From contig MEOF01000001.1 in assembly GCA_001769505.1 (NCBI GenBank), forward strand, positions 1 through 46,015: 46,015 bases of DNA, written 5' to 3'. The notes beneath the pieces are model-generated. The model ran no database searches. It was not told the origin of the DNA and worked only from the letters and a program-made list of their open reading frames with translations. Shown one piece after another: positions 13,784 to 17,505 of this stretch. The DNA is from Bacteroidetes bacterium GWF2_33_38. GTDB lineage: Bacteria; Bacteroidota; Bacteroidia; Bacteroidales; GWF2-33-38. The position numbers and the translations under genes were made by a program. How positions within the stretch are numbered: position 1 is the stretch's first letter; each line of letters opens with the position of its first letter.

Positions 13784-13999
13784 AGCGTTTCGTATTTTTA
13801 TTTAGATAAACGAAGATAGAGCCTATTATATTTTGTTATGAATCAACAAAAGTCTTTTTATCAACAAATTAGTGTTGATGATTTCTTGCATAATTAACAA
13901 CTGGTTTTCAATTCTAATTTCGTTTAAATACGAATTCTAAATCACGGTAATTTTTCTTAATTTCGCATTCTCAAATTTTAAAATCCAATCGTTCAAAAA

Positions 14000-16900
14000 A
14001 TGGAATATAATTTTACCGAAATCGAAAAAAACTGGCAAAAATTCTGGAGTGAAAACAAAACTTTTAAAGCCGAAGTTGACAAAAACAAACCAAAATTCTA
14101 CGTTTTAGATATGTTTCCTTATCCTTCTGGTGCTGGACTTCACGTTGGTCATCCACTTGGATATATTGCATCGGATATTTATTCTCGTTTCAAACGATTG
14201 AATGGTTTTAATGTTTTGCATCCAATGGGTTACGATGCTTTTGGTTTGCCAGCCGAACAATATGCAATCCAAACTGGTCAACATCCAGCAATTACAACCG
14301 ATGTAAACATAAAACGATATCGTCAACAATTAGATAAAATTGGATTTTCATACGATTGGGATCGTGAATTTCGCACTTGTGATGCCGATTATTACAAATG
14401 GACACAATGGGCTTTCACTCAAATGTTTAATCATTATTATGATAACAAAACAAATAAAGCCGAAAGCATTGAAAGTTTGATTTCCGAATTTGAAAAAAAT
14501 GGAAATTCAAATGTAAATGCAGTTTGTAGCGAACCCGAAATTTTTTCTGCATCAGAATGGAAACAAAAATCAGAAAACGAAAAACAAGAAATTTTGTTGA
14601 ATTACCGAATTGCATATTTGGCTGATACAATGGTAAATTGGTGTTCGGCTTTAGGAACAGTTTTGGCAAACGATGAAGTTAAAGATGGTTTGTCGGTTCG
14701 TGGCGGACATCCAGTTGAACAAAAGAAAATGCGTCAATGGAGTTTGCGAATTTCTGCTTATGCCGAAAGACTTTTAAATGGTTTAGATACCGTTGATTGG
14801 ACAGACTCGCTGAAAGAAATGCAAAGAAATTGGATTGGAAAATCGCAAGGAGCGGAAATACATTTTGACCTATCCCCAACCCTTTCCAAAGGAAAGGGAG
14901 CTAGACCCGAATATATGACAACCGACGCTCACACTTGGTTAGGAGTGAAAGAACACGTTGTTGAAAACAGAAAAAATTCAACAGAAGCCGAAGCTTTTTT
15001 ATGGAAAAATTTGAAAGGAAAAAAACTTGGATATAAAATTCGTCGACAACACGCAATTGATAAGTTTATTGCTGATTTTGTTTGTTTAGAAAAGAAAACT
15101 ATAATTGAAATTGATGGAATTTATCACGATTTTCAAAAAGAACAAGATGAACATCGAACTCAAATTTTAACAGAATTAGGATTTTCAGTAATTCGTTTTA
15201 AAAACGAAGAAGTTTTTGCAAATCCCGAAAAAGTTTTAGCAGAAATCAAATCATATTTGGACGCAAAAGTCCTCCCCTTCGGGGAGGATTTAGGTGGGGT
15301 CGGATTTACTATTTTCACAACTCGTCCTGACACAATTTTTGGTTGCACTTTTATGGTTTTAGCTCCTGAAAGTGAATTAGTTGATAAAGTTACAACTACG
15401 GAATATAAATCAGCAATTCAAGAATATATATTAGAAACAAAAAAACGCACCGAACGTGAACGTATGGCGGATGTGAAAAAGGTTTCAGGACAATTTACTG
15501 GAGCGTATGCGATAAATCCATTCACAAAAACCGAAATCCCAATTTACATTAGCGATTATGTTTTGGCTGGTTACGGAACTGGTGCAATTATGGCGGTTCC
15601 TGCTCACGATAGCAGAGATTTCAAATTTGCAAAACATTTTAATTTGCCAATAATTCAAGTTGTTGCAAAAGCTGGCGAAACCGAAACTGATCCTCAAACT
15701 TGGGAAGATTCGTACGACTCGAAAGATGGCGTTATGATAAATTCTGGCGTTATAACTGGAATGACAGTGAAAGATGCTGTTAATCACATTATTGATATTA
15801 TTGAAAACGAAGATTTAGGAACTCGAAAAGTGAATTATCGTTTGCGAGATGCAATTTTCAGCCGTCAAAGATATTGGGGCGAGCCATTTCCTGTTTATTT
15901 TAAAGATGGATTACCACAAGTTTTAGATTTGAAAAATTTGCCTTTAGAATTACCCGAAGTTGATAAATTTTTACCAACCGAAGATGGTCAACCACCACTT
16001 GGACGTGCAAAAAAATGGTCAACCGAAGAAGGTTTTCCGTTTGAATTGAGTACAATGCCTGGTTTTGCTGGTTCATCAGCATATTATTTGCGATATATGG
16101 ATCCAAAAAATGATAAAGAATTGGTTTCAAAAGATGCAAATAATTATTGGCAAGATGTTGATTTATACATTGGTGGAACCGAACACGCAACAGGTCATTT
16201 AATTTATTCACGTTTTTGGAATAAATTTTTGTTCGATTTGGGTTTGGTTTGCAAAGAAGAACCTTTCAAAAAATTGATAAATCAAGGAATGATACAAGGT
16301 CTGTCAGAATTTATTTGTACAATTTCAGGACACAAAATGGGAACTCAAAATATAACAACTTTATTTGATTTTTATTGGCTTAATGGAATTAAAAATATTG
16401 TAGATTGTAACGGAAATAATATTAATGCTGAAGTTTTTTATAGCGCAGAAATAGCAGAGGAAGCGTTTAATAATATTGCTGAAGTTACTGAAAAATGCAA
16501 GTTATTAAAATTTAATATTCCTATTTATTATACATCTAATCATAAATTAGTCGAATTTTCAAAATTTAAATTATGGAGAGATTTAGACTCGCCATCTACT
16601 TCTATTTTTGTATGCAAGAATGGATATTGGATTGTTAAAGGAAATTCTGTAGAATGGATTGGAGACCAAAATATTAAAGGAGATTTTCATACAATTCCCG
16701 TAGTGGAAAAAATGTCAAAATCAAAATATAATGTTGTTTCACCTGATAACAACTATGATAGTGAAGGAAATCTTATTCAAGAAGGAGTAATTGAAAAATA
16801 CGGAGCCGACACATTGCGTTTGTACGAAATGTTTTTAGGTCCATTAGAACAATCAAAACCTTGGGACACTCAAGGAATTGATGGAGTTCACCGATTTTTG

Positions 16901-17428
16901 AAAAAACTATGGCGATTATTTTTCGATAACAATGGAACGTTCCAAGTTTCTGACGAACCTGCAACCAAAGACGAATTAAAAATTCTTCACAAAACAATCA
17001 AAAAAATTAAAGAGGATATTGAGAATTTCTCATTCAACACATCGGTAAGTGCATTTATGATTTGTGTGAACGAACTTTCTGATTTAAAATGCAATAAGCG
17101 TGAAATTTTGAGTGATTTAATCGTTTTAGTTTCCTCGTTTGCACCACATATTTCGGAAGAATTGTGGAACAAATTAGGAAATAAAGAAAGCATTTCGTTT
17201 GCGAAATTCCCTGAATTTAAAGCCGAATATTTGGTTGAAAATTCATTTTTATATCCAATTTCGTTTAACGGAAAAATGCGTTTTTCAATGGATTTTCCAA
17301 TAGATGCAACGATAAAAGAAATTGAAACTGTAGTTTTAAACGACGAACGTTCGCAAAAATGGTTAGAAGGAAAAGCTCCGAAAAAAGTAATTATTGTTCC
17401 GAAAAAAATTATAAATATTGTTTTTTAA
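14000..17428 (+). CDS. leuS: Leucyl-tRNA synthetase with in-frame DUF559 insertion
   Basis: A class I aminoacyl-tRNA synthetase charging tRNA-Leu. HIGH is HVGH (48-51) and KMSKS is at 904-908; editing-domain landmarks TTRPDT (440-445) and AVPAHDSRD (532-540) are intact. At 1142 aa it is roughly 200 residues longer than usual for Bacteroidota (from memory). The excess has two parts. Residues about 292-434 form a DUF559 domain between GAEIHFD and [10 protein letters not shown], at the start of the CP1 editing domain. A second expansion lies before KMSKS (about 768-902), where I recall only about 75 residues in relatives. Both keep the frame. As leuS is essential, the extended protein is presumably active, unless a second leuS exists elsewhere. 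The gene is monocistronic, with a terminator at 17506. Confidence 0.95.
14874..15299 (+). mobile_element. DUF559 element inside leuS, bounded by GC-rich hairpins
   Basis: The outer ends CCCCAACC (14874) and GGTGGGG (15299) are inverted relative to each other. Perfect hairpins lie inside: CCCTTTCC/GGAAAGGG (14880-14898) and CCTCCCC/GGGGAGG (15271-15287), both far more G+C-rich than the surroundings. Between them is a DUF559 domain with its Vsr/PD-(D/E)XK-like signature: E329 and E331 in [21 protein letters not shown] (D359), IIEIDG (E370, D372) and H376. An internal ATG at 14915 could start a free protein, but no stop codon closes it before leuS resumes. Between the CCCC and GGGG ends there are 426 bp, 142 whole codons. 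Exact borders cannot be fixed without an uninterrupted relative. Confidence 0.8.
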
Positions 17429-17505
17429 CAGCAAGTATTTTTCAGTTGATTAACCGTTTAAAAATCGCAAAATTCGAAATTTATTTCTTGATAGATTAAA
17501 AAAAA

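Follow-up and report, generated by a model that had tools for sequence, protein, structure and literature searches.

The leuS gene of Bacteroidetes bacterium GWF2_33_38, which encodes leucyl-tRNA synthetase (LeuRS), contains in frame a 431-bp element made up of a DUF559 nuclease domain between two inverted, outward-pointing repeats of the BoxC/PIT/TM type. The gene lies in a stretch of 46,015 nucleotides (positions 1 to 46,015 of contig MEOF01000001.1; hereafter the window). The best explanation, to which we give a probability of about 0.78, is that the segment is a mobile element that encodes a nuclease and has triplex-forming ends, kept as a translated, tolerated domain of its host protein. 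Comparison of sequences shows the family, its ends, its many hosts, its presence and absence at homologous sites, its recent spread and its mobility. A preliminary description, made from the letters of the window, had proposed a mobile, protein-tolerated nuclease element at this position; that interpretation is supported overall, and it overlooked the triplex (BoxC-type) nature of the hairpin ends.

The element and its host gene

In the window leuS is a single frame of 1142 codons that stays open through the insert (14000-17428, + strand). The frame scored 892 bits against the NCBIfam profile TIGR00396 leuS_bact (cut-off 548), and LHVGHPLGY, KMSKS and the editing domain are all present; we take LHVGHPLGY to be the HIGH-type motif and KMSKS to be the LeuRS motif of that name. 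Pfam profile PF04480 (DUF559) matched amino acids 322-420 with an E value of 1.9e-31 and 108.6 bits, compared with a cut-off of 20.6. The domain follows GAEIHFD, where the CP1 editing domain begins, as had been described, and is accompanied on each side by a GC-rich, perfect 8-bp hairpin. The features are as follows.

14000-17428, + strand: host gene leuS, leucyl-tRNA synthetase, 1142 amino acids, containing the element (frame; Pfam and NCBIfam matches)
14867-15301, + strand: whole element including the symmetric GACC...GGTC tips (edges from comparison with filled and empty LeuRS sites in other genomes)
14869-14898, - strand: left end, triplex motif pointing outward, stem GGAAAGGG, outer arm GGGGATAGG, 8/8 triplets
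14912-14962, + strand: N-terminal module, resembling the [YFW]xTA[DN]xxx[YW]xxL stretch found in most in-frame copies (by eye)
14963-15259, + strand: DUF559 nuclease domain, Vsr/EDxHD-like PD-(D/E)XK, amino acids 322-420 (profile match and predicted structure)
15074-15115, + strand: putative catalytic residues D359 (15074-15076), E370 (15107-15109) and D372 (15113-15115) (alignments; their catalytic role is our assumption)
15270-15299, + strand: right end, triplex motif, stem TCCTCCCC ttc GGGGAGGA, outer arm AGGTGGGG, 8/8 triplets
15302-15340, + strand: host sequence picks up again, start of the CP1 editing domain

Under the triplex rule the element measures 431 bp from tip to tip (14869-15299) and has no stop codon in the leuS frame. 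The left edge given in the preliminary description, 14874, fell about 5-7 bp short. Read on the + strand, the left end is an outer arm, CCTATCCCC (14869-14877), followed by the hairpin at 14880-14898, and the right end is the hairpin at 15270-15288 followed by AGGTGGGG (15292-15299).

A single frame exceeded the TIGR00396 cut-off in the whole genome (3.93 Mb, 99.1% complete), and the remaining matches were sub-cut-off pieces from three frames of 884, 681 and 1204 amino acids; a second intact leuS, which the preliminary description had allowed for, was thus not found above the cut-off. By profile search the genome has one strong copy of DUF559 and one weak match, and the right-end pattern of the element occurs at one place. 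The further hairpin-bounded DUF559 units that had been anticipated are therefore missing from this genome and plentiful in its relatives. The weak match (20.9 bits; G000:C53:54438-54605, L002; G and L numbers are our genome and locus labels) lies within a 429-amino-acid frame.

Removal of the segment after or before translation, as an intein or an intron, would suit a conserved host gene and a nuclease fold of the homing type. No intein family was found among the Pfam and NCBIfam matches to the LeuRS frame, however, and an Rfam scan of 13900-17500 with E up to 1 gave no intron family, its sole match being a sub-threshold mir-84. Since the insert consists of hairpin linkers and nuclease only, with the frame open throughout and neither the splicing (Hint) domain that defines an intein nor the catalytic RNA structure that defines a group I or II intron, we give this explanation almost no credence, and the element is distinct from both, as was claimed for it.

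When modelled alone with AlphaFold, the insert forms a compact nuclease fold with a mean confidence score (pLDDT) of 82, and its low-confidence ends are the translated hairpins. Among solved structures 3hrl is the closest (Z 15.4), followed by I-Bth0305I (Z 12.0) and Vsr (1cw0, Z 9.7); with Foldseek alone, the match to Vsr was weak (E 0.13). The acidic residues D, E and D show no variation in alignments of 30, 16 and 76 rows. The ratio of nonsynonymous to synonymous substitution rates (dN/dS) over the DUF559 part was finite in 16 of 18 pairs of in-frame copies, some of which have a member in common, and ranged from 0.04 to 0.148; in the two pairs with saturated dS, the corresponding ratio of proportions (pN/pS) was 0.13 and 0.19. 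Judged by these ratios, the nuclease domain is under purifying selection. Decayed copies that are still in frame (L119 at the LeuRS site used in the window; L280 and L281 at a third LeuRS site) have lost at least one of the D/E/D residues.

Purifying selection would also be expected if LeuRS and other hosts had recruited the nuclease for defence or a stress response, and the insert has weak matches, and only weak ones, to PADLOC models (Nhi, E 2.2e-5; AbiO, E 4e-4); matches to PHROGs were likewise weak. A functional domain fusion nevertheless seems very unlikely to us, because the hosts are unrelated, the DNA ends are conserved, presence is patchy within a genus, and degenerate copies persist without the full set of catalytic-type residues.

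Triplex-type ends

The flanks of DUF559 genes are mutual inverted repeats in 91 of 119 loci, compared with 11 of 363 control windows, and strong hairpins stand on both sides in 54 of 120 loci, compared with 1 of 360 controls. Past the hairpin, the outer arm repeats the stem arm with A replacing T, which is the rule of a purine-motif triplex. This was found in 55 of 79 distinct strings (shuffled mean 19.7, maximum 37). An A-to-C control gave 7 (shuffled 16.4) and a swapped-base control 28, against 18.8 when shuffled, a value reached in 23 of 5000 shuffles; in a register that proved too strict the rule held in 38 of 126 cases, compared with 10.1 when shuffled.

Hairpins were also scored for triplets (G*GC, A/T*AT) in 206 locus rows. 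Among 228 perfect hairpins, 174 had 8/8 triplets on the outer side and 23 on the inner side, and shuffled flanks gave a mean of 31.5 and a maximum of 42; both ends of the window's element score 8/8. Rows dropped as copies before triplex scoring and the analysis of ends and duplications were L003, L123 and L127-L129; L122 (E. coli) was left out as well, and five pairs that are apparently the same contigs were both counted in these analyses (L163/L084, L166/L093, L168/L074, L187/L087 and L219/L098). By this pattern the ends of the element are BoxC/PIT/TM-type repeats, that is, purine-motif triplex motifs pointing outward. Triplex formation in vitro has been demonstrated for an E. coli sequence (PMC4666352), and the ends in the window are predicted to form triplexes as DNA.

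Just past the triplex arms, the outermost two bases on one side are the inverted repeat of those on the other in 41 of 85 elements, compared with 11.6 when shuffled (maximum 21). These bases vary between elements (GCGGCC/GGCCGC in L111, GCAGCC/GGCTGC in L114), and their match is unexplained by any model considered here.

In E. coli K-12 the DUF559 gene is ycjD, whose product has already been listed as a putative PD-(D/E)XK/Vsr relative (PMC1189080). A triplex motif lies about 165 bp downstream of ycjD, together with a second, degenerate-looking motif; an inverted pair of triplex motifs was not found in the surroundings of this gene. Similar places number a median of 18 per E. coli genome, and the motif next to ycjD is a suggestive link to DUF559.

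Hosts, presence and absence, and spread

Our order-level sample comprised 99 genomes: that of GWF2_33_38, two from its family and the rest from its order. DUF559 was present in 36; E was below 1e-15 at 49 places, 11 of which lay in frames of at least 300 amino acids. Across 395 genomes of the class Bacteroidia, 81 of the best 150 places listed were in such frames (both hand counts; the 81 include a place of 308 amino acids in G228 whose sequence itself was not retrieved). A profile built from 30 in-frame copies found at least 576 relatives in named genomes, and 74 of the best 80, which were kept, lay in frames of at least 300 amino acids, with a query biased towards them. Cultured carriers include Cellulophaga baltica DSM 24729 and Gillisia mitskevichiae DSM 19839, each with a single DUF559 match, located in a leuS frame (1150 and 1082 amino acids, respectively).

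Reading of these frames placed the domain inside many unrelated enzymes, from 17 NCBIfam host families: LeuRS, IleRS, ValRS, MetH, AcsA, RecG, RecJ, MutS, TsaD, IcmF, a SiaA-type phosphatase, a RecB-like helicase, WecB, a MazG-type pyrophosphohydrolase, PaaZ, HsdM and HsdR. Thirteen exceed the curated cut-off; MetH (whose frame is cut by the locus), the SiaA-type, the RecB-like and HsdM fall below it. Most in-frame relatives belong to Bacteroidota, with one occurrence in a LeuRS of Candidatus Paceibacterota and one in a cyanobacterial methyltransferase-like protein. Chance read-through from a neighbouring gene was rejected for LeuRS because leuS is single-copy, host motifs flank the insert and filled sites were compared with empty ones. 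For three hosts with an N-terminal DUF559 (HisF, L090/L110; an RluA-type protein, L062; Gmk, L232) read-through may be the explanation, and these were excluded from the 17 families. The weak DUF559-like domains at L279, L282 and L283 were set aside as not being in-frame elements.

LeuRS is occupied at two clear sites, A (that of the window) and B (just ahead of TMPGWAGSSWY); the third is marked by DUF559-like domains that are degenerate (L280, L281). Within 16300-16720 of the window, LeuRS between NQGMIQG and EKMSKS differs by eye from the relatives examined and has extra residues in the following loop, and G082 and G037 have a degenerate DUF559-like domain in the matching region of LeuRS.

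The element may be a gene of the homing-endonuclease kind that does without splicing: DUF559 would cut an empty allele and repair of the break would copy in the insert, the hairpins being incidental or aids to repair. I-Bth0305I and Vsr are the nearest solved structures after 3hrl, ValRS is occupied at the matching CP1 start (L214, L225), and the left junctions at LeuRS site A cluster, lying 12-20 nt from a conserved motif in 31 of the 36 measurable rows (of 53); the Paceibacterota LeuRS is in this set, its own end not being measurable. The difference in synonymous divergence (dS) between element and host in the RecJ pair L074/L087 (0.36 and 1.46, respectively) agrees with this as well. Homing to a specific site does not by itself need an outward triplex rule above chance, or solo ends, however, and related elements with like ends occur in 17 host families; we regard homing as a possible account and a doubtful one.

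A stretch of approximately [YFW]xTA[DN]xxx[YW]xxL ahead of DUF559 is, by eye, common to most in-frame copies (L025 and L117 are examples without it) and missing from most free-standing copies, the short copies L198 and L216 being exceptions. In a tree of DUF559 (from which L119, L031 and L032 were left out) most in-frame copies fall on one side, with 9 state changes compared with 27.1 when shuffled. This points to a specialised lineage and bears on another alternative, transposition as in RAYT/REP, in which the nuclease would recognise folded single-stranded ends and act by single-strand transfer, coding copies being survivors of random insertion. Consistent with it, inverted hairpin repeats bracket the gene in free-standing copies too, solo repeats occur in genomes, no target duplication was found, and in-frame copies are present on both sides of the tree. 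The fold, on the other hand, is PD-(D/E)XK and not that of a tyrosine/HUH nuclease, and we know of no such single-strand transfer by a PD-(D/E)XK enzyme. Given also the one-sided tree, we rate transposition of this kind as possible but doubtful.

The mobile-element reading, with the insert retained as a tolerated domain, is supported by sites that are filled in some genomes and empty in others. Within a single genus (36 genomes), nine genomes have the full element, over the whole query, in the MetH linker (L123-L131); in others this linker has a remnant with an internal deletion (G498, L134) or hairpins only (L138, L145 and L152), or is plain. A quick tree of few columns places the nine elements in two clades (support values, SH-aLRT, of 97 and 99), which, like some of the LeuRS identities given below, speaks for independent insertions. 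In the same genus, 30 loci were fetched for LeuRS site A and 28 read: four are filled (G161, G490, G500, G508), four have a single hairpin unit (L240, L243, L249, L261), a plain loop, 19-22 residues long, is present in 16, and four are in other states; G494, judged from match coordinates, is apparently filled. Short in-frame repeats were also seen in the MetH linker (L133, L135, L141, L143, L150) and at LeuRS site A (L236, L251, L257), among them VTLSGVEGQ-type hairpins and runs of CCAGCAACCAGC and CCGAACTCCCGACTC; it looks as if small repeats generally land in linkers of proteins.

Recent spread is suggested by G105, where elements in two paralogous phosphatase genes are 93.6% identical over 471 bp and the hosts beyond them about 35% (the second contig begins within the element, so that only the right junction is visible there). 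In an AcsA pair, dS was 0.39 for the element and 0.97 for the host. Over 51 rows of LeuRS site A (1274 pairs, with L024 and L119 skipped), host and insert identities correlated at 0.44; L154 and L226, for instance, have hosts 79% identical and inserts 43% identical. The Paceibacterota LeuRS, from a 0.8-Mb genome, shares 43-50% identity with the other LeuRS proteins in the pairs listed and its insert up to 59%, in a metagenome-assembled record whose host gene is itself of a distant type. Vertical inheritance alone was ruled out as a general account by the tree, by filled and empty sites in one genus, and by the weak host-insert correlation. The preliminary description had considered that close relatives might all be filled by descent with no bounded copies elsewhere; this is not so, and bounded copies stand in many other genes.

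Beyond Bacteroidota, 13 of 37 plasmid records with DUF559 were chosen (6 Cyanobacteriota, 6 Pseudomonadota and 1 Deinococcota, two genera more than once). Left-right inverted repeats scoring at least 24 flank the gene in 10 of 13, compared with 2 of 13 far-flank controls, and 38 of 156 cross-pairs between plasmid loci also reach 24, because the repeats of different plasmid loci resemble each other. A 4.9-kb coding sequence of Pseudanabaena galeata that, by its motif, reads as a DNA methyltransferase contains the domain. On a Sphingomonas parapaucimobilis plasmid (L268) a DUF559 gene with inverted hairpins lies between sufB and sufC of an Fe-S assembly operon, and on cyanobacterial plasmids (L263, L265, L271, L272, L275) DUF559 genes adjoin or sit within DUF1156, PglX or methyltransferase-like genes.

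A number of observations weigh against a mobile, tolerated domain. Movement itself was not observed, and the genome of GWF2_33_38 has one copy of the element. The model of full-length LeuRS is poor (pLDDT 54) and lends no structural support to tolerance of the insert. Filled alleles at LeuRS site A are without about eight host loop residues that are present in empty alleles, so that insertion there was not a clean addition. Alignment of leuS with relatives, from which the preliminary description had hoped for an empty site and a target duplication, defined the first; a target duplication was not found, direct repeats of 4 nt being present in 7 of 85 elements (5.4 when shuffled) and of 6 nt in 0 of 85. 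Several close pairs, two LeuRS pairs among them, have equal element and host dS (L022/L024, element 0.55, host 0.61 and 0.54; L072/L077, element 0.17, host 0.23 and 0.25), which is plain co-descent. On the free-standing side of the tree 13 of 42 rows are themselves in long frames; in-frame residence is thus not restricted to one lineage. As to the ends, a perfect 8-bp purine hairpin is absent from the vicinity of 78 of the 206 locus rows, and a perfect 7-triplet end is missing from 41 of the 169 rows in frame and 21 of the 37 with short frames. Triplex patterns associate loosely with DUF559: at least two copies occur in 12 of 36 order-level genomes with the domain and in 7 of 63 without it (hand count), and G076 and G048, which lack DUF559, have 28 and 20.

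Known elements and a possible mechanism

Inteins, introns, RAYT/REP, Rickettsia palindromic elements and DDE insertion sequences each have a defining property that the element lacks. A classical DDE insertion sequence has a transposase gene and a target-site duplication; neither was found for the element, and no transposase family is among the Pfam and NCBIfam matches to the leuS frame. The insert does belong to the DUF559 family, given its profile score, its invariant acidic residues and its Vsr-like fold.

BoxC/PIT/TM repeats occur in more than 260 genomes and are always intergenic in E. coli K-12, where no remnants of a transposase or integrase are said ever to have been found (Holder et al. 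2015, PMC4666352). The ends described here share with them the hairpin and third-strand arm, the GC-richness, the purine-motif triplex rule and a wide distribution in bacteria; unlike the intergenic repeats of K-12, they bound a DUF559 gene, inverted and pointing outward, and lie also inside coding genes. RAYT are tyrosine transposases; an inverted pair of hairpin repeats brackets their gene, and such repeats also occur singly in genomes (Nunvar et al. 2010, PMC2817692). The DUF559 loci likewise place the gene of a DNA-cutting enzyme between inverted hairpin repeats, with solo repeats, but the enzyme is a PD-(D/E)XK nuclease and not Y1 tyrosine (HUH), the ends are of the triplex type, and many copies are in frame in host proteins. 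Rickettsia palindromic elements, of about 150 bp, encode a conserved peptide in frame in unrelated protein genes, and a nuclease is unmentioned in the account given by a review (PMC10969869). The present element is likewise palindromic and in frame in unrelated genes, but is 431 bp long and has a nuclease domain in place of a short peptide.

A Caulobacter DUF559 protein, VsrA, is required for a DNA-damage response in cells lacking a methyltransferase (PMC12907096). A cyanobacterial DUF559 gene has already been assigned to the EDxHD homing endonuclease family (PMC9403480). The likeness of the element to EDxHD/Vsr-like homing endonucleases (I-Bth0305I, PDB 3r3p) lies in its fold and in repeated occupancy of conserved sites, the cutting of an empty allele being putative. 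To our knowledge, the known enzymes of this kind operate from introns, inteins or free-standing genes, in contrast to an element that is in frame, apparently unspliced in its host protein, and has structured DNA ends. In fungal mitochondria, rps3 carries in-frame fusions to homing-endonuclease genes, which encode LAGLIDADG enzymes and are not known to have triplex ends; there, too, a host protein tolerates an in-frame nuclease. In the open-access literature searched, so far as its text was available, no description of hairpin-bounded or in-frame DUF559 elements was found, and no carrier of BoxC-type triplex repeats has been reported.

We propose an element of about 0.43-0.7 kb in which a DUF559 nuclease of the Vsr/EDxHD homing-endonuclease fold lies between two inverted, outward intrastrand-triplex motifs, each end being a hairpin with a third-strand arm as in BoxC/PIT/TM repeats. 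The nuclease may nick or cut DNA at the structured ends, at the empty site or at both, and the element would then be copied in through repair or single-strand transfer. Because in-frame copies have no stop between their ends in the nuclease frame, the element would be translated as an additional domain within the host protein, with the translated hairpins as Pro/Gly-rich linkers; open frames and purifying selection suggest that the LeuRS insert is translated in this way, and the protein would be produced at full length and still function. Such elements sit at insert-tolerant loops and domain junctions, and loss from single-copy essential genes may be hard other than by decay in frame. Solo hairpins in genomes would be non-autonomous copies or relics. 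Landing sites may be actively chosen, as the preliminary description held, and repeated occupancy near one codon could equally be survivorship at a few tolerated sites.

We think it somewhat probable that DUF559 nucleases supply the mobility enzyme that has been missing for the BoxC/PIT/TM repeats found across bacteria, and that the two together form a class of mobile elements with triplex-forming ends in place of those of a classical transposon, one lineage of which has specialised as an unspliced, tolerated domain of essential proteins. If this is true, these repeats (PMC4666352) would have a candidate mobility enzyme. The comparisons also show that mobile DNA encoding a nuclease resides in frame within essential, single-copy genes across many bacteria. 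This bears on the origin of insert domains in tRNA synthetases and other enzymes, on the annotation of genomes, and on the use of such elements as natural maps of the protein sites that accept foreign domains.

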